Part shown: positions 21,579 to 41,538 of the stretch, one piece after another
How the letters are laid out: every line of letters starts with the position of its first letter
How positions within the stretch are numbered: position 1 is the first letter of the stretch
NCBI RefSeq assembly: GCF_017094505.1
Contig: NZ_CP064787.1
Span: 620,001 to 684,000, forward strand
Direction of reading: 5' to 3'
Source of the DNA: Halapricum desulfuricans
GTDB lineage: Archaea > Halobacteriota > Halobacteria > Halobacteriales > Haloarculaceae
DNA length: 64,000 nt
The notes under the pieces: generated by a model
What the model saw: the letters and a program-made list of their open reading frames with translations, nothing else
Database searches by the model: none
What the model was told of the DNA's origin: nothing
Position numbers and translations under genes: made by a program

Positions 21579-21965
21579 ATGACACGCACGCCCGAGACGC
21601 TCGCCCGACACGAACTGATCGGACTCGACGTTCGCGTCACGGCGGCGTCCAACTCCGACCTGCTGGACATCGAAGGCGAGGTCGTCATGGAGACGACCAA
21701 CACGTTACATATCGAGCGAGCCGACCGGGCGTGGCCAGCGCGGAACGACGTTCCGCGGGACGTTCGAGCGGGCAAGCGCGGCGCTGCGCGCCGCGAGTCC
21801 GAGGCGGTGTCACCGTCTCGCGCCCGCGAGAAACTGGTGCCGAAGGCGGCTGCGACGTTCGAATTCACTCTTTCGGACGGACAGCGAGTCCGAATCGAAG
21901 GAGAGCGACTCGTCGCACGACCGGCCCGACGCACAGAACACACAGGTGATTCCACATGGCGATAG
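21579..21965 (+). CDS. rnp1: Ribonuclease P protein component 1 (Rpp29/POP4), with an in-frame palindromic insertion
   Basis: 128 residues. Archaeal RNase P protein subunit that assists the catalytic RNA in cutting tRNA 5' leaders. Conserved parts are [31 protein letters not shown] and the C-terminal [35 protein letters not shown]. Between residues about 50 and 88 the Sm-like fold is interrupted by a low-complexity Arg/Ala/Glu-rich stretch ([23 protein letters not shown]) encoded by perfect DNA palindromes at 21739-21820. The ATG at 21579 follows GAGGAGGAACAG. It overlaps rps17 by 10 bases. Confidence 0.93.
21729..21832. repeat. Palindromic element inside rnp1
   Basis: Three hairpins with 3-base loops lie in a row: CGCGGAAC/GTTCCGCG (21739-21757), CGCGGCGC/GCGCCGCG (21777-21795) and CGAGGCGGT/ACCGTCTCG with one G-T pair (21800-21820). 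GCGGGC (21768-21773) and GCCCGC (21822-21827) enclose the second and third. The left flank GCGTGGCCAG (21729-21738), TTCGAGCGGGCAA (21763-21775) and GCCCGCGAGAA (21822-21832) recur in the array at 38868-38922. The element keeps the gene in frame. Confidence 0.75.
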
Positions 21966-34463: not shown

Positions 34464-36401
34464 TCACGACGGCAGGAGTCCGTCGCGTTCGAGCTCGTCG
34501 GCCAGCGACTCGGGGAGGTAGTTCGCCGAGGCGTCGAAGTCGTAGCTGAGCCACCCATCACACGAGTGGTAGTTGGCCGAATCGCCGTCGAACTCCGAGT
34601 AGCACTTGTTGTCCCCGTCGAGTTCGCCGATCACGTTGTGCAGGAGTTCGTGGACGAGGATCCGTGTTCGGACGCTGTACTCGCCGACGGTCCCGCTCGA
34701 GCCGGCGTCGTTGATCGAGAAATAGCCCGGTGCGTAGCCGCGGCCGGCGACGCTGTCCGAGTCGATCGGGACGATTATCGCGGCGCGGGTCACGCCGAGC
34801 ATGTCGCCGACGTACTGCTCGGTGTAGTAGGTGTCGGACAACTCGCGGAACTCCTCGCCGCTGCCGTCGGTCGTGACCGACCGCTCGAGCCGTTTGTGAG
34901 TCATGTGGACCGTGATGCCGGTCGAGCCGTCCGGGTTGTCGACGGGCATGTCCGCCCAGGCCCGCCGGAGACCGGCACGTTCTGAGCTGGTGAGGGCGTC
35001 CGCGTTCGCACTCGTGAGCAGCGTGACATACAGGTCCTTCCGGAGCGGGTCCGCACCCGGAATCGTCGCGCCGCTCGCGGTCTCGCCGCTGACCTCCGCA
35101 CCGTCTTCGAGTCCGTCGCTGTCGGTGTCGGGATCAAGCGGGTCCGTCCCCAGATCGTATTCCCGGCCGTCGTCGAGCCCGTCACTGTCCGTGTCGACGC
35201 TGTCGGGATCGGTGCCGAGTTCCCGCTCGACCTCGTCGGGGAGTCCGTCGCCGTCGGCGTCGGGCGTCGGTGTCGTCGGATCGGTTCCGAACGCGAGTTC
35301 GGCGTCGTCGTCGAACCCGTCGCCGTCCGTGTCGACCGCGGTCGGGTCCGTCCCGAGATCGAGCTCCCTGCTGTCGTTCAGTCCGTCGCCGTCCGTATCG
35401 GCGCTGTCGGGGTCGGTCCCCAGTTCGTCCTCGCGACCGTCATCGAGTCCGTCGCCGTCAGTGTCCGCCACGAGCGGGTCGGCACCGAGCGTCAGCTCGC
35501 GGCCGTCCTCGAGTCCGTCGCGGTCGGTGTCCGCCACGAGCGGATCAGTCTCCAGTTCCATCTCACGGCTGTCGTTCAGCCCGTCCTCGTCTGTATCGAC
35601 CGCAGTCGGGTCCGTTTCGAGGTCGAGCTCTCGACCGTCATCGAGCCCGTCGCCGTCGGTATCGGGATCGAGCGGGTCCGTCCCCAGATCCGTCTCGATT
35701 CCGTCCTCGAGTCCGTCGCGGTCGGTATCTGCCACGAGCGGATCCGCCTCGAAGTCGAGTTCTCGGCTGTCGTTCAGCCCGTCGTCGTCGCTATCGGCGT
35801 CAAGCGGATCCGTCCCCAGCTCTAGCTCGCGGCTGTCGTTCAGCCCGTCGCTATCCGTATCCGGGTCCGTCGGGTCAGTCTCGAGGGCAAGCTCTCGGCC
35901 GTCGTCGAGCTCGTCGCCGTCGGTGTCCGGGGCCGTCGGGTCAGTCTCGAGGTCGAGCTCCCGGCTGTCGTTGAGCCCGTCGTCGTCCGTGTCTGCCGCA
36001 CGTGGATCCGTGTCCAGATCGACTTCCCGCCCGTCAGCGAGCCCGTCGCCGTCAGTGTCTGCAACGCGCGGGTCAGTCCCGAGGTCGAGCTCTCGGCCGT
36101 CGGACAGTGCGTCGCTGTCAGTGTCTGAGTCCGTCGGGTCCGTCTCCAGCTCTCGCTCGCGGCCGTCGTTCAGTCCGTCGCCGTCAGTGTCCGCCACGAC
36201 CGGATCGGTCGGGCCGTCGAGTTCGACACCGTCATCAAGCCCGTCGCCGTCAGTGTCAGAATCGAATGGATCCGTCCCGGCGAGCAGTTCCGATCCCGCG
36301 GGAACGCTGTCGCTATCCAGTGCGACCACATTGGTCACGAGTACGACTCCGGTGACAAGGAGGACAACGACAACGACGGGTAGAGCGATCTCCCGTCTCA
36401 C
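34464..36401 (-). CDS. Surface protein with about 18 calcium-type aspartate repeats and a C-terminal zincin-like domain
   Basis: 645 residues. An N-terminal hydrophobic helix (7-27) is a signal or anchor. Residues 49-445 carry about 18 tandem units of 22 residues (D-T-D-x-D-G-L-x-D-x-x-E-x-x-x-x-T-D-P) resembling thrombospondin type 3 calcium-binding repeats. The C-terminal domain (about 455-645) ends in a zinc-protease-like H-E-L-L-H (584-588) followed by NVIGELDG and Cys-containing loops (NKCYSEFDGD; HSCDGWLSYD). It may be a secreted, calcium-stiffened stalk with a metalloprotease tip. No Tat motif is seen, so export is probably by Sec. Confidence 0.8.
   Translation of the reverse strand: MRREIALPVVVVVLLVTGVVLVTNVVALDSDSVPAGSELLAGTDPFDSDTDGDGLDDGVELDGPTDPVVADTDGDGLNDGRERELETDPTDSDTDSDALSDGRELDLGTDPRVADTDGDGLADGREVDLDTDPRAADTDDDGLNDSRELDLETDPTAPDTDGDELDDGRELALETDPTDPDTDSDGLNDSRELELGTDPLDADSDDDGLNDSRELDFEADPLVADTDRDGLEDGIETDLGTDPLDPDTDGDGLDDGRELDLETDPTAVDTDEDGLNDSREMELETDPLVADTDRDGLEDGRELTLGADPLVADTDGDGLDDGREDELGTDPDSADTDGDGLNDSRELDLGTDPTAVDTDGDGFDDDAELAFGTDPTTPTPDADGDGLPDEVERELGTDPDSVDTDSDGLDDGREYDLGTDPLDPDTDSDGLEDGAEVSGETASGATIPGADPLRKDLYVTLLTSANADALTSSERAGLRRAWADMPVDNPDGSTGITVHMTHKRLERSVTTDGSGEEFRELSDTYYTEQYVGDMLGVTRAAIIVPIDSDSVAGRGYAPGYFSINDAGSSGTVGEYSVRTRILVHELLHNVIGELDGDNKCYSEFDGDSANYHSCDGWLSYDFDASANYLPESLADELERDGLLPS
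35066..36257. repeat. 66-bp tandem repeats encoding calcium-type modules
   Basis: About 18 units of 66 bases, each one 22-residue module of the surface protein. Units vary at third positions and at a few residues, so the array is diverged, but the phase is kept throughout. Recombination between units could change copy number. Confidence 0.8.
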
Positions 36402-36591
36402 GACGGACGCCTCCTACGTACGCCGGTGGACCCGTCGACGGCACGCCCCGGTCCGGAAACAACGGGTTCCATGCGTGCTCGTTGGTCTCGACGGCAAAAC
36501 GTCTACGGCCCGCAGTACCACATCTGATACTGAAACCTCTCGACCGGCCGGTTCGAGAAGGTATTTACGCGAAAGCGGGCTTTACACACCC

Positions 36592-37677
36592 ATGCACGAT
36601 TTCGTCGTCGTCGGAGCGGGACCGGCTGGCTCGCGGTTTGCACGCCGGGCTGCCGAGATCGGCCACGACGTGGTCGTCTTCGAACAGGGGGCGATCGGCG
36701 AGCCGCTGGCGTGTTCGGGCCACGTAAGCACCGATGTCTGGGAATTCACGCCAGACGGTGCGCGTGAGGCGTTACTCCAGAACGAGATCTACGGGGCGCG
36801 CTTTCGCCTTGGAGGCCCGGACAGCGAGGCCTATCCCTTCTACAAGGAGACGGTCGTCTCGAACGTCATCGACCGCGTGGGGCTCGACCGCTGGCTCGCC
36901 GAGGCCGCCCGCGACGCGGGCGCTGACGTCCGAGACCACCACACTGTCACTGCAGTCGAGGAGCACCGCGACCGCGTCGAGGTCACGGTTCGCGGCCCCG
37001 ACGGCGTCGAAACGCACGAGGCGCGGCTGGTCGCCGGCGCGGACGGTCCGCGCTCGAAAGTCCGGAGCGAACTCGGACTGCCCGAACCCGGGGAGTTGCT
37101 TCACGGCGTGCTGGGCTTCGAGGAGTCGCCCGACGACGCGGACTTCGTCGACGTGCACCTGACCGTCCCCGGGTTTTTCGCCTGGCGGATCCCCCGCGCC
37201 GGGGCCGGCGTCGAGTACGGTCTCGCGGCCAGCCCCGGCGCGGAGGTCGGCGAGTGGTTCGAGGCGTTTACCGACAGCTACGGTGCGGAGACGACCAACC
37301 GATGTTCGGGACTGATTCCGATCGGACCACCCGAGACAGTCACGAGCGGGCGGGCGTTTCTGGTGGGCGACGCCGCCGCACAGACCAAGCCGTTCACCGG
37401 CGGCGGGATCCGCTACGGCATGATAGCCGCCGATCGGGCCGCCGAGACCGTCGATCCCCGCGATCCGGCGACGCTCGACGATTACGAGTCGGGTTGGCGA
37501 TCGGAACTGGGCCGAGAGATCCGACTCGGTGCGTGGATCCGGCGCGGCTACTCGCTCCCGCAGGCTATCCAGCGGCTCGGGCTGGGTCTCTTCTCCGGCG
37601 AGATCGGCGTTCACATGGACGAGCCGTCGACGCTGTTCTCCCGTGAGCAGCTGCGGGCGATGTTTTCACGATCGTGA
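36592..37677 (+). CDS. Geranylgeranyl reductase family flavoprotein
   Basis: 361 residues. The Rossmann start DFVVVGAGPAGSRFARRAAE binds FAD, ACSGHVSTDVW and GDAAAQTKPFTGGGIRYGM are characteristic of geranylgeranyl reductases, which saturate isoprenoid chains of archaeal lipids. The ATG at 36592 is the only sensible start, since everything upstream in this frame is antisense to the calcium-repeat gene. A TATTTA box lies about 30 bases before it. Archaea hold several paralogues, so the exact substrate (lipid, menaquinone or other) is uncertain. Confidence 0.85.
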   Translation: MHDFVVVGAGPAGSRFARRAAEIGHDVVVFEQGAIGEPLACSGHVSTDVWEFTPDGAREALLQNEIYGARFRLGGPDSEAYPFYKETVVSNVIDRVGLDRWLAEAARDAGADVRDHHTVTAVEEHRDRVEVTVRGPDGVETHEARLVAGADGPRSKVRSELGLPEPGELLHGVLGFEESPDDADFVDVHLTVPGFFAWRIPRAGAGVEYGLAASPGAEVGEWFEAFTDSYGAETTNRCSGLIPIGPPETVTSGRAFLVGDAAAQTKPFTGGGIRYGMIAADRAAETVDPRDPATLDDYESGWRSELGREIRLGAWIRRGYSLPQAIQRLGLGLFSGEIGVHMDEPSTLFSREQLRAMFSRS

Positions 37678-38569
37678 TGTGCCCGCGAATAGTAACAGCG
37701 AGATAGATTCTATGGAATTATAATATATAAAACACGGTATCCAGTCCCATCTGGCCGTAATATCATTTTCCAGTGTTATATTTGTAACTGATGAGTTTGG
37801 TTCCCAGCACCGCATAAATCCGTCTGCAGCTGTGTGAAAAACAACCTGGATCTGACAGAAGCACGCTTCTCGCAGCACCCGACACTCGACAAAACCGTAA
37901 TTCAGCTCGGAACGGAGTGGATGTCGCGGCCGATCGAAAAGTACCAATTACTCCGTAGACGTCTGTTTCTGACGATGATTTCGAGACTCGTACGGACCGC
38001 TGTAGCAATTCACCGGCTAGACTCAGGGAGTCGGCGTTTGCCCGAAATAATCTACAACGGTCCGTATCAGACGGGGAGTCTTCGCGTGAAAGTGGCGCGC
38101 AACCGGACGTGGACAACACCGGGCTTCTGACTGACAATGCTGACCCCTTTCAGGCTGCACTCTCACGATTCGGACTTCGGTTTCATATCTGTTGCCGCTG
38201 AAAGCACATTGAGACTGAATACATATATAATATTATAGGACTGGCAAAACAACAGCCGACAAATATTTCTGACAGGGCCGGGATAGTGACGGTAGACTGT
38301 CATCCGGGACATTCGCTATTCCGCACTCAACGTCGAAGACATCGATGTTCTCTATCTGGTGCGGACCAAGTGAATATTCTACTCAGACTGGGTGGCTATA
38401 CGTTCGGAAGGATATCTGGCACGACGGCGTGCCAGATCAGTTCAAAATGGTATCGCCACCAGTATCACCTTTGCACGTAAGTGGGCGTGACGTAGGCGGT
38501 GATAAAGACGGGTGATATCGATCGCGGAAAACCGACCACGTCTAGACAAAGAAGCTTCCCGTCTCCCAA
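37678..38569. other. Gene-poor AT-rich region with possible decayed genes
   Basis: 892 bases, much lower in GC than the flanks. One weak open frame (GTG near 37834 to stop 38130, plus strand) encodes about 98 residues with no family; a phrase like VIRDIRYSALNVEDIDVLYLVRT at about 38300-38372 looks like a gene remnant ended by a stop. A perfect palindrome is listed separately. I see no intact gene. Confidence 0.4.
38414..38437. repeat. Perfect 10-bp-stem palindrome
   Basis: ATCTGGCACG and CGTGCCAGAT pair perfectly around the loop ACGG. It stands alone in the decayed region, with no promoter or gene nearby. It could be an element end or a structured remnant. Confidence 0.6.
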
Positions 38570-38728
38570 TTGGAGGACGTGAAGCCAGTCATCGGCGAGA
38601 AAGAAACCGACGAAGACAACCCGGTCAGGCACCTCGCCACGAACGAGATCGGCGCACCGACCGAGCACGCGATTCGCTCCTGCGGAATGCGATGGCGCAT
38701 CGAGACGTTCTTCGAGGACCCGAAGCAT
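38570..38728 (+). pseudogene. IS4-type transposase fragment
   Basis: About 53 codons are recognisable: the phrase LATNEIGAPTEHAIRSCGMRWRIETFFED, C-terminal part of a DDE transposase. The IS4 signature Y-x2-R-x3-E-x6-K reads CGMRWRIETFFEDPK, with the Tyr changed to Cys and the catalytic Glu kept. Both the N-terminal catalytic part and the C-terminal end are missing, and stop codons crowd the sequence upstream. No terminal inverted repeats or target duplications are clear. It is a dead insertion sequence fragment. Confidence 0.7.
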
Positions 38729-38804
38729 GGGAGACTACGGCCCCTACGGGAACTGCGGTTGTTCCTGCAAAGCGCGTCGCGGAAGCGGGAAGCCCCATCT
38801 GCTC

Positions 38805-38922
38805 ACGGGCGCGCAGCGCCCGTTCGCATGGTCAGCGGGACCTTCGGTCCCGCACTACCCTCAGCGAGCGTGGCGAGGCGCAAAGCGCCTCAGACCATTC
38901 GAGCGGGCAAAGCCCGCGAGAA
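38805..38922. repeat. Array of four perfect hairpins with 3-base loops
   Basis: Four stems follow each other: ACGGGCGC/GCGCCCGT around GCA (38805-38823), GCGGGACC/GGTCCCGC around TTC (38835-38853), GAGGCGC/GCGCCTC around AAA (38875-38891) and GCGGGC/GCCCGC around AAA (38903-38917). ATGGTC (38828-38833) and GACCAT (38893-38898) could pair around the middle two. The flanks GCGTGGCGAG, TTCGAGCGGGCAA and GCCCGCGAGAA are shared with the element in rnp1. The frame of the transposase fragment stays open through the array. Confidence 0.75.
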
Positions 38923-39006
38923 GACGTCAGCGCGAGCAGGGTGGGGTAGTTCACCTATAGTAGGTGTATGTATCTACAGTATGTATCTTTATCTTCGATT
39001 GGAACA
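38923..39006. other. Short AT-rich gap downstream of rdfA with palindrome
   Basis: CACCTA-TAG-TAGGTG (38952-38966) is a perfect inverted repeat lying about 40 bases beyond the rdfA stop; it may act as a terminator for rdfA. A direct repeat GTATGTATCT follows (two copies between 38966 and 38990). Confidence 0.4.
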
Positions 39007-39621
39007 TCACTCACTGTCGCCCTCGATAAGATCGAAGATGTCGAACTGCTCGCCGGTGTCGGTGTAGATGACCTGGATATCTACGACGACATCGACGTCA
39101 CCCTCCGGAACTAGCTCAGCCCGCTGAAGTCCCTCGATGGCGTCCTGGGTGACAGCCGCCGACCGGTTCTGGAGTTTCTGAATGCGTTCAAGTGCTGATT
39201 CACGGCGCTGTTGGGGCGTCGGTTCTGGCTGTTCGACGTCGCGGTACTCGCGGAGATAGGTATGGATCGTCTGGTGAGTGACGAAATTCCCGGTCACTGA
39301 CTCGACGTCAATGCCGTTCCGCTCGAGCCGGCGCTGGGTGCGCGTCCGGACGCCGCCGCTCACGTCATCGCCGGTCAACTGCTCGTAGAGTCGATCGATG
39401 TCGACATCGAGAACGCTCATCTCACTCCGTTCGATAGCCGCTTCGAGGACTATTCGGTTAAAATGATCCGCCAGCTCTCGCAGACTCATACCGTCCTCGC
39501 CCGTCGCCAACCACCGTTGCTCCAGTTCGTCTCCGACGCCGTCGAGGTCGTACGCTTCGATCACCTGTGCAACTTTGCTCCGCGATTTGCCCCCATCTGT
39601 TCTGGGTTCATGGCTGCCCAT
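39007..39621 (-). CDS. rdfA: Rod-determining factor RdfA
   Basis: 204 residues. The sequence KVAQVIEAYDLDGVGDELEQRWLATGEDGMSLRELADHFNRIVLEAAI, the central VSGGVRTRTQRRLERNGIDVESV and VTHQTIHTYLREYRDVEQP match haloarchaeal RdfA proteins, which in Haloferax volcanii are needed for the rod cell shape. The core is helix-turn-helix-like, so a regulatory role is plausible. Chosen start: ATG at 39621. It is isolated in a gene-poor region next to insertion-sequence debris, and has an AT-rich leader with an inverted repeat upstream. Haloarchaea often hold several RdfA paralogues. Confidence 0.8.
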   Translation of the reverse strand: MGSHEPRTDGGKSRSKVAQVIEAYDLDGVGDELEQRWLATGEDGMSLRELADHFNRIVLEAAIERSEMSVLDVDIDRLYEQLTGDDVSGGVRTRTQRRLERNGIDVESVTGNFVTHQTIHTYLREYRDVEQPEPTPQQRRESALERIQKLQNRSAAVTQDAIEGLQRAELVPEGDVDVVVDIQVIYTDTGEQFDIFDLIEGDSE

Positions 39622-40452
39622 GTGTGACCGTCAATCGGCCGAGATATATACCAGTTACCGTCGGAGATATAGTTGCCCGCTGACAGTAAGATTACATCTG
39701 TATGTCTGTAATATTCTTACTGCCCGATCAGTAGTGATTGTGTTGCGGTTCGATCACACTAGCCGTATCTATCACAGGGATTCGCGTGGAAACCGACAGA
39801 CTTCACTCGGGAGATCGGATCCACGATCGGCGACGCTAATCTCGATCAGTTTGGAAGCGATTCACTTCTATTCGCTCGAGCAGGCTGTCAGTCCCACCCC
39901 GTTGGCCTCGCACGGTTTGCGCGGACAGGCCTCGTCGACGGACTTGTCCGCGGCCACGTGAAAGACTGTATCCAGATCAGGCGTGGCGACGCCCGTGACG
40001 ACATCGGGTCGGTCGCCCTCAACGAGTTCAGCCGCCGGGGATGGACTCGCGGACCTCGTTCAGGAGGTCGTCAACGACGATCCCGCGTTGTCCGCGACCA
40101 ATAGGTGTAGTATCATTCAGTGCCTGCGTTACCGTAGTCCATTACGTGCATACAGACGTAATTGGCAGTCGATCACCGTCCCCCAATCGGATTGGTTTCA
40201 CCCGGATGGTGCGCCACAAGCATAATATAACTGAGTATTCTACTCTCTCCGCAGGCCGTCTAATAGACATATCAGTTATGAATTGTCGTCGCGATATCGT
40301 GAGATGCCCGTTTTCTCGCTTTTGAGGACTTTTACGGGAATTCTGGTTAGCCACGGCTGAGATAGATATAGGGGGATCTTATAGATCTTACTACACGTAT
40401 TCATATTGGTTTTTACCGATAGACTTTCACCCAATCAGCCACATGAGGCAGT
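39622..40452. other. Intergenic region between rdfA and the TrmB gene, with possible gene remnant
   Basis: 831 bases, AT-rich at both ends. A decayed fragment may exist on the minus strand between about 40110 and 39870: one frame reads RGIVVDDLLNEVRESIPGG then a stop, another continues DTVFHVAADKSVDEACPRKPCEANGVG, which vaguely recalls an NAD-dependent epimerase fragment. This is a weak guess. The AT-rich TATA candidate for the TrmB gene lies near 40400-40425. Confidence 0.35.
39684..39722. promoter_or_regulatory. Nested inverted repeat upstream of rdfA
   Basis: CAGTAAGA (39684-39691) pairs with TCTTACTG (39715-39722), and inside it TTACA (39692-39696) pairs with TGTAA (39707-39711). It lies 63-101 bases before the rdfA ATG in AT-rich DNA. 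It could be a regulator binding site. Confidence 0.45.
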
Positions 40453-41538
40453 ATGGACGCCGATGAGCTACGACGTGCACTCGAAAGCGCCGACCTCACG
40501 AAGTACGAGGCAGAAGCGTATCTGACCCTCATCGAGTACGGACAGCTGGCCGCTGTCGATGTTTCGAGCAAGTCTTCGATACCGACCTCGCAGGTGTACG
40601 AGACGCTCAGGTCACTCGAAGAACAGGGGTTCGTAGAGACAATCGAGCGGGATCGCCTGCACGCCGAGCCCAAGGAGCCGAGCGAGATACTCGCCCAGTT
40701 GCGTACGCACGGAGAACTGCTGACCGCGGCGGCCGACGAGCTGGAGGATCGCTGGGAAGAGCCGGAACTGGACGATCACAGAGTCAGTGTAGTGAAGCAG
40801 CCGGAAACGGTGTACAAACACGTCCGTAGTCGCCTGGAGGACGCGACCGTCTCTGCGGACCTGACTGTGAGTTTCGACCAGCTGAAACTGCTGTTGCCGG
40901 AACTTGAGGCGGCCGCCGATCGCGACGTCTTCATCCGGATCCATCTCTACGACGAGCCGGATCTGCATGAGAAGGCCACGTCGCTCGGGCTGGCGGACTC
41001 GAACCTGAATATCCGCGTGGGGACGATCCCCGGCCCGTTTATCGCGATCATCGATCGCAACTCGCTGTTCTTCGCGCCGAACTCCCGTGCTGACGAGGAT
41101 TACGGGATCCTGATGAACGACAACATTCTCTCGTTTATCACCCACTGGTACTTCTTGAGCTGTCAATGGCACGTGTGGGAGCCGCTGTTCGGGTCGGGCC
41201 GGCACTGGACAGAGTACGATTCGCTTGAAGAGTTCATGCGGGACATCGTCCCGCTGTTTGACGATGGGGCAGAAATACAGCTCACGGTTCGCGGCAATTA
41301 CATCGATTCCCGTGAAGAGTGCAGAGAACAGGGAGAGCTCGTCGAGGCGTTCTATCCGACCCGATACATCGGCAGCGGTTCCGAACTGTCACTCGAGGAC
41401 CTCTCGAGTTACGCTACAATCTACATCGATACCGGCGAAGAAGTGCTGTCTGTTGGTTCCTGGGGGGCAGTCTACGAGGACATCGAGGCACACCGAATTA
41501 CGATCACGGACATCCAGTTCCCGTACGGGACTCACTGA
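40453..41538 (+). CDS. TrmB-family sugar-responsive transcriptional regulator
   Basis: 361 residues. Residues about 1-75 form the winged helix (ADLTKYEAEAYLTLIEYGQLAAVDVSSKSSIPTSQVYETLRSLEEQGFV), the TrmB DNA-binding domain. The middle (about 120-235) is the phospholipase D-like effector-binding fold and the C-terminus (about 240-361) the TrmB sugar-binding domain (GSELSLEDLSSYATIYIDTGEEVLSVG). Archaeal TrmB proteins repress or activate sugar uptake genes depending on bound sugar. Its place next to the GH3 and ABC genes suggests it regulates them. The inducer is probably a glucan oligosaccharide (inference). Confidence 0.9.
   Translation: MDADELRRALESADLTKYEAEAYLTLIEYGQLAAVDVSSKSSIPTSQVYETLRSLEEQGFVETIERDRLHAEPKEPSEILAQLRTHGELLTAAADELEDRWEEPELDDHRVSVVKQPETVYKHVRSRLEDATVSADLTVSFDQLKLLLPELEAAADRDVFIRIHLYDEPDLHEKATSLGLADSNLNIRVGTIPGPFIAIIDRNSLFFAPNSRADEDYGILMNDNILSFITHWYFLSCQWHVWEPLFGSGRHWTEYDSLEEFMRDIVPLFDDGAEIQLTVRGNYIDSREECREQGELVEAFYPTRYIGSGSELSLEDLSSYATIYIDTGEEVLSVGSWGAVYEDIEAHRITITDIQFPYGTH

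Follow-up and report, generated by a model that had tools for sequence, protein, structure and literature searches.

A hairpin array in a tnpB remnant of Halapricum desulfuricans very probably consists of two opposite insertions of a small mobile palindromic element of haloarchaea

Introduction

In the 64,000-nucleotide stretch of the Halapricum desulfuricans genome analyzed here (the window), four hairpins follow one another within 118 bases beside a transposase fragment. What are these hairpins, and how did they come to lie in a row? The initial annotation, which was made from the sequence, considered such a run improbable by chance and implied a single RNA beside the fragment. Our results indicate that a mobile palindromic element of haloarchaea, non-autonomous and 54-60 bp long, has very probably inserted twice, in opposite orientations, into the right-end hairpin of a tnpB remnant of the IS200/IS605 type, and that the array is the outcome. 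The features are listed in Table 1.

Results

The four perfect stems with 3-base loops reported in the initial annotation were recovered at the same coordinates and with the same lengths. Their clustering exceeded that in 60 first-order Markov shuffles of the window, in which the densest 118 bp contained at most 3 hairpins and typically 2, compared with 4 in the real sequence. The complementarity of ATGGTC (38828-38833) and GACCAT (38893-38898), which had been proposed to enclose two of the hairpins, was also confirmed, and it exists because a conserved linker occurs twice, inverted, once in each of the two copies described below. Structure prediction gave an RNA fold of -94.4 kcal/mol for 38790-38950, against a shuffled mean of -65.8 (z = -6.5, with 0 of 200 shuffles as low). 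The predicted fold includes an outer stem, absent from the initial annotation, that closes the whole array by pairing 38793-38804 with about 38934-38946, the CCCC and GGGG sides of the right end. The frame of the transposase remnant does stay open through the array, and so do all three forward frames. No Rfam family matched above its gathering score in 37600-40500.

The coding remnant beside the array is composite. The 53 residues encoded at 38570-38728 share 60-77% identity with haloarchaeal IS701-family transposases, including ISHala4-like ones (tblastn). From 38730, the DNA matches the final codons of TnpB genes that are intact elsewhere in this genome (L002, L005), with 90% identity between 38730-38796 and the intact 439-aa TnpB of L002, and the intact TnpB carries the Pfam domains OrfB_IS605 and TNB. 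With ...GAAGCCCC / GGGGTAGTTCAC, the DNA reaches the right end of an IS200/IS605 (IS1341-type) element, a region that normally folds into a short hairpin. The locus has the order of such a right end: the TnpB C-terminus, a CCCC...GGGG hairpin, and then TAGTTCAC. The open frame 38512-38949 ends at the same stop (..PREDVSASRVG, then stop) as the intact TnpB of Halapricum hydrolyticum (G002, contig JAOPKD010000008.1), which belongs to the same genus as the window genome (G000). Since the host transposon is a remnant, the array in the window is probably inert DNA in a dead transposon.

Table 1. Coordinates of the array, its host and the third copy of the element in the window
Feature	Position	Strand	Basis or details
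IS701-family transposase, C-terminal remnant fused to tnpB remnant	38570..38728	+	tblastn of 53 aa
Last codons of TnpB (IS200/IS605, IS1341 type), remainder of gene missing	38730..38791	+	
tnpB right-end hairpin, 155 bp with insertions A and B (41 bp without them), then TAGTTCAC end	38792..38946	+	
Open frame, TnpB C-terminus in frame through A and B	38512..38949	+	
Element copy A, A type, 60 bp (20 codons)	38798..38857	-	clean insertion vs L059/L092 and empty site
Hairpin 1 of A	38805..38823	.	8 bp, loop GCA
Hairpin 2 of A	38835..38853	.	8 bp, loop TTC
Element copy B, B type, 54 bp (18 codons)	38871..38924	+	clean insertion vs empty site
Hairpin 1 of B	38875..38891	.	7 bp, loop AAA
Hairpin 2 of B	38903..38917	.	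6 bp, loop AAA
Third window copy, inside rnp1 (RNase P p29), extra hairpin nested in second loop	21733..21836	+	model R1

The four hairpins belong to two inverted copies, A and B, with two hairpins each. Copy A reads TCTGCTC-hairpin-TCGCATGGTCA-hairpin-ACTA on the plus strand and TAGT-hairpin-GACCATGCGA-hairpin-GAGCAGA on the minus strand. The B-type layout is T(A/G)G-hairpin-GACCATTCGA-hairpin-GAGAAGA, beginning with TGG in copy B of the window and with TAG in most other copies, and the linker joining the two hairpins is conserved as GACCRTKCGA. A covariance model (R1) was built from seven B copies only, as aligning A and B together displaced the stems by one base. It scored copy B at 85.7 bits and copy A at 45.6 bits (minus strand), and because a model made from B copies also matches A, the two are homologous.

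Removing 38798-38857 and 38871-38924 from the window leaves the 41-mer GCCCCACCCTCAGCGAGCGCGTCAGCGCGAGCAGGGTGGGG, which has 0 mismatches to copies in other genomes. By pattern search, this empty right end was found exactly or nearly exactly in ten genomes of seven genera. A and B are therefore clean insertions, with no bases duplicated or lost. Each pair of hairpins also occurs singly: the intact TnpB of H. hydrolyticum (L059) has the same right end with the second pair (B) only, and in L016, which belongs to a different genus, the same site holds the first pair (A) alone. Near-terminal palindromes of tnpB right ends hold the element in the window and at L014-L016, L036 and L186. In place of the single RNA that had been implied, the array is thus in all likelihood made up of two separate insertions of one two-hairpin element in opposite orientations.

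Orthologous genes with and without the element were compared between species, not between strains, and they gave the same picture of precise insertion. The first site in argB is empty (GAAGACGTGGTG) in G005 and G002 and carries 54 bp (18 codons) in G001; this insert is also found in the window genome, where its surroundings are locally rearranged. Another argB insert is common to the window genome and G001 and is absent in G005 and G002. In ileS, the site is a short turn (DREGxLVIW) in most haloarchaea. There, G003 and G098 are without the insert, in contrast to the window genome, G001 and G005, in which B is a precise 54-bp insertion within a region that carries an older insert without B in G002, an intermediate stage. 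No target duplication was found at ileS or at the exact 41-bp empty right end. The insertion point lies directly 5' of CG in argB, ileS and the tnpB right end, and most other copies likewise have CG on their right side.

The covariance search suggested in the initial annotation recovered the hairpins in other haloarchaea, so that both further copies and a conserved structure exist. Among 59 distinct copies, 99.0% of the pair cells hold standard pairs, and 7 of the 14 pairs have two-sided changes (83 cells). The covariation score was 0.280, compared with 0.088 after shuffling (0 of 500 shuffles as high), in an alignment that was fitted to the model and therefore leans towards structure. The score collapses once the partners are slid by one to three bases, and the palindromes are also plain in unaligned copies. 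Compensatory changes support both stems.

Of the 103 family genomes, 92 contain strong copies by model R1, and all 18 genera are represented; a genome usually has 1-20 copies and at most 42. The small genome G085 (2.6 Mb) carries these 42 strong copies, far above any relative. In an even draw across the phylum, 63 of 294 genomes matched; among the matches listed in that draw, all came from the window's order, and no other order was represented. When GTDB genomes were scanned with an exact pattern, 25 contigs were hit, all of them haloarchaeal. Nine haloarchaeal plasmids also matched, with seven of the nine copies under annotated genes, and for a possible viral vector there was no match in phage records or viral contigs. 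In the genome of the window, a strict pattern returned few copies because the letters of loops and stems vary, and the covariance model was used instead; the copy census of this genome comes from searches. The presence of a Y1 transposase did not correlate with the element (Spearman -0.06, p = 0.52): 27 of the 30 genomes without Y1_Tnp still carry it, and the median copy number is 6 both with and without Y1_Tnp.

B-type copies lie mostly within protein genes. At 47 of 49 distinct non-TnpB loci, the phase-1 open reading frame has a Pfam or NCBIfam domain in the domain scan. The genes carrying the element include ileS (three sites), argB and valS (two sites each), aroC, gyrB, topA, gatE, sufB/D, a merA/lpd-like gene, pyrC, nrdJ, pheS, scpA, enolase, purK, queC, moaA, moeA and pepF, as well as genes for acyl-CoA ligases, a P-type ATPase, DNA ligase, an XPD-like helicase and ornithine cyclodeaminase (three genera); the list is not exhaustive. 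In ileS, argB, aroC, gyrB and sufB/D, the insertion point falls inside a single domain match. To counter bias from best matches, another 20 copies were drawn from across the range of scores, of which 15 lay in recognized genes (phase 1), 2 in tnpB right ends, and 3 were unresolved. Three genomes, from different genera (L086, L087, L088), share the insertion site in the ornithine cyclodeaminase gene (TIGR00300), and merA on plasmids of several genera also has an insert. Either these are old shared insertions or the insert spread with the gene.

The copies inside genes are nearly all read in one of five stop-free frames, phase 1 (SSAERSSADRSSGQSPRED), whose peptide is near S-S-A-E-R-S-S-A-D-R-S-S-G-Q-S-P-R-E-D, and the host proteins gain about 18 amino acids per in-frame copy. 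A TAG stop usually interrupts phase 0. The remaining four frames usually contain no stop, and their peptides are basic or hydrophobic. A single clear exception to phase 1 occurs in the window, where the gene for the RNA-binding protein Rnp1 (RNase P p29; 21579-21926) uses a basic frame. Residues 7-116 of the protein read from 21579 match PF01868 (E 2e-18). In this copy, the loop of the second hairpin contains a further hairpin (CGCGGCGCTGCGCGCCGCG). Domain searches replaced longest-open-frame statistics as evidence of coding, since GC-rich DNA leaves a long antisense frame open as well. A binomial calculation of frame use was based on round numbers (40 of 41) with shared ancestry ignored, and it is illustrative only.

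Outside protein genes, the element occurs in tnpB right ends and in intergenic composites. Composites with CCACsTTTTT/AAAAAsGTGG, seen around 1400-1650 in L017-L042, may be bidirectional terminators or elements of an SMR-like type. Other small palindromes (..CTCGGAACGCGCGAG / CGGCGAAGCCGCGAG..) flank many of the in-gene copies, as in L006, L089, L105, L107 and L116, and these inserts are therefore nested in older inserts. As B copies often adjoin other palindromes, some of those in genes may have spread as parts of larger composites.

Other palindromic inserts were observed in the same searches. A different two-hairpin palindrome (GTCGTTCGAGAATCnnnGATTCTCGTGATC..CGAAAAnnnnTTTTCGGACGAC) is present at the right end of an IS200-like tnpA (L043, 1895-1970) and in a decayed element (L004, 1395-1500), and probably represents a further family of this kind. 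In L002, the intact TnpB has about 19 extra codons near its C-terminus (..SSESPCDSDGLRKSLSDFR.., 1435-1500) that form two hairpins and are absent in the TnpB of L005; this stretch is another in-frame palindromic insert, of unrelated sequence. Elsewhere in the window, a protein of Asp-rich DxDxDGLxD repeats (34464-36401, minus strand) is overlapped by a 924-aa frame on the plus strand (34903-37677). The first part of this frame is low-complexity Ser/Pro sequence and probably spurious, and its last part is a flavoprotein-like gene.

Discussion

The genome comparisons establish, at the level of sequence, precise insertion, the lack of target duplication, dispersal at unrelated sites, conserved folding and the use of one frame. 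Haloarchaeal DNA is GC-rich and rich in hairpins, and the window itself has 49 against 34 expected, so that palindromes formed by chance in GC-rich junk beside a dead transposon might be thought a sufficient explanation. This reading has practically no credibility: a four-hairpin cluster never appeared in the shuffles, and it is refuted by the copies in most haloarchaeal genomes of the family, the covariation of the stems and the exact empty sites. The array might instead be an enlarged, functional TnpB guide RNA scaffold (omega RNA or sotRNA) whose right-end hairpin has evolved extra stems. Its position is exactly that of the right-end hairpin present in haloarchaeal TnpB guide RNAs (PMC12558985), the outer stem still forms, and in H. 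hydrolyticum the right-end hairpin of an intact 438-aa TnpB contains B and retains the outer stem. However, the same modules occur in ileS, argB, gyrB and other genes that have no TnpB in their vicinity, the 41-bp hairpin of most relatives lacks them, and with most of the window's tnpB gone no partner for a guide RNA is left in cis. We therefore consider a functional scaffold very improbable.

More weight is due to the SMR-A elements of Haloquadratum walsbyi, although we still regard it as unlikely that the element is a fragment of this type, with A and B as internal pieces rather than independent mobile units. SMR-A are about 110 bp long with prominent terminal inverted repeats, lack a transposase, cause no target duplication, and insert inside near-terminal palindromes of IS605-type elements (PMC3119063). 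The element shares with them its haloarchaeal hosts, the missing transposase, the absence of target duplication and this choice of target, and 16 of 23 intergenic A-type copies lie in 113-185-bp composites with CCACsTTTTT...AAAAAsGTGG ends. But in the window, in L016 and in argB and ileS, what was inserted is exactly the 54/60-bp module and lacks those ends, which makes the module itself the inserting unit. Judged by description, the element is also set apart from SMR-A by the size of this unit, by two internal hairpins and, in the window, by having no prominent terminal inverted repeats, and the available portion of the SMR-A report describes no in-frame copies within genes (PMC3119063). An origin as a REP or REPIN mobilized by a RAYT is less probable still. 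Like GTAG-tagged REPs, which are sometimes found inside genes, including tRNA synthetases and repair genes (PMC3733652), the element is dispersed and starts with (G)TAG next to a short hairpin. Its right end, by contrast, is GAGAAGA and not CTAC, which means that it is not an inverted pair of REPs; most of the copies found are intragenic instead of extragenic, no association with a RAYT was found, and the presence of Y1 is uncorrelated.

For the preferred reading, two opposite insertions of one mobile element, a mechanism can be proposed. The element would move as a folded single strand, with a hairpin-binding nuclease of the HUH/Y1 type acting in trans, as for IS200/IS605 and REP elements. 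We infer movement as a folded strand from the precise insertions, the lack of duplication, the preference for sites 5' of CG and the frequent targeting of other palindromes. The lack of correlation with Y1 weakens the HUH/Y1 part of this proposal; a Y1/HUH transposase may have been active at an earlier time, or the element may be moved by a different enzyme. Copies may survive inside genes because their length is a multiple of three and one frame (SSAERSSADRSSGQSPRED) encodes a short hydrophilic peptide that would be tolerated at protein turns. Selection for the encoded peptide is possible.

On balance, we lean towards regarding the element as an undescribed family of mobile palindromes, present in most haloarchaea, that has repeatedly placed exact 18- or 20-codon in-frame inserts in essential genes, with the acidic peptide frame selected. 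If this is true, haloarchaea have in the element a recurrent source of protein insertions. As the family is class-wide, occurs in organisms that are free-living and genetically tractable, and has filled and empty sites within one genus, it allows tests of the way such elements move, of the reason for the use of one frame and of the importance, if any, of the added peptides. The inserts are also relevant to annotation, as they split or distort domain models in ileS, argB, gyrB, enolase and other genes. In addition, the locus is a concrete case, at the sequence level, of small repeats landing in a TnpB right-end hairpin, which the TnpB guide RNA also contains.

So far, palindromic repeats that code for protein have been described chiefly in intracellular bacteria (Rickettsia, Wolbachia) and in a single methanogen. 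Our literature search found no description of the present family, which is weak evidence of absence as subscription journals were largely outside its coverage; the kind, coding palindromes, is known, and the haloarchaeal family appears to be undescribed. As far as the available accounts of the coding palindromic repeats of Methanocaldococcus jannaschii go (Suyama et al., 2005, via PMC2229807 and PMC2996958), those repeats are likewise archaeal palindromes in frame in protein genes. They come from a different archaeal phylum, whereas our element is restricted to Halobacteriales and class-wide, a comparison made by description only. The Rickettsia palindromic elements (RPE) measure 105-146 bp (PMC2229807), unlike the 54/60 bp (18/20 codons) and two hairpins of the haloarchaeal element, and homology to them was not found in the phylum search and the GTDB pattern scan, in which nucleotide matches were confined to haloarchaea. 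In kind, the resemblance to RPE and to the protein-coding palindromes of Wolbachia is close: the element lies in frame in many unrelated conserved genes and also outside genes, and within the genes it forms a tolerated peptide insert.
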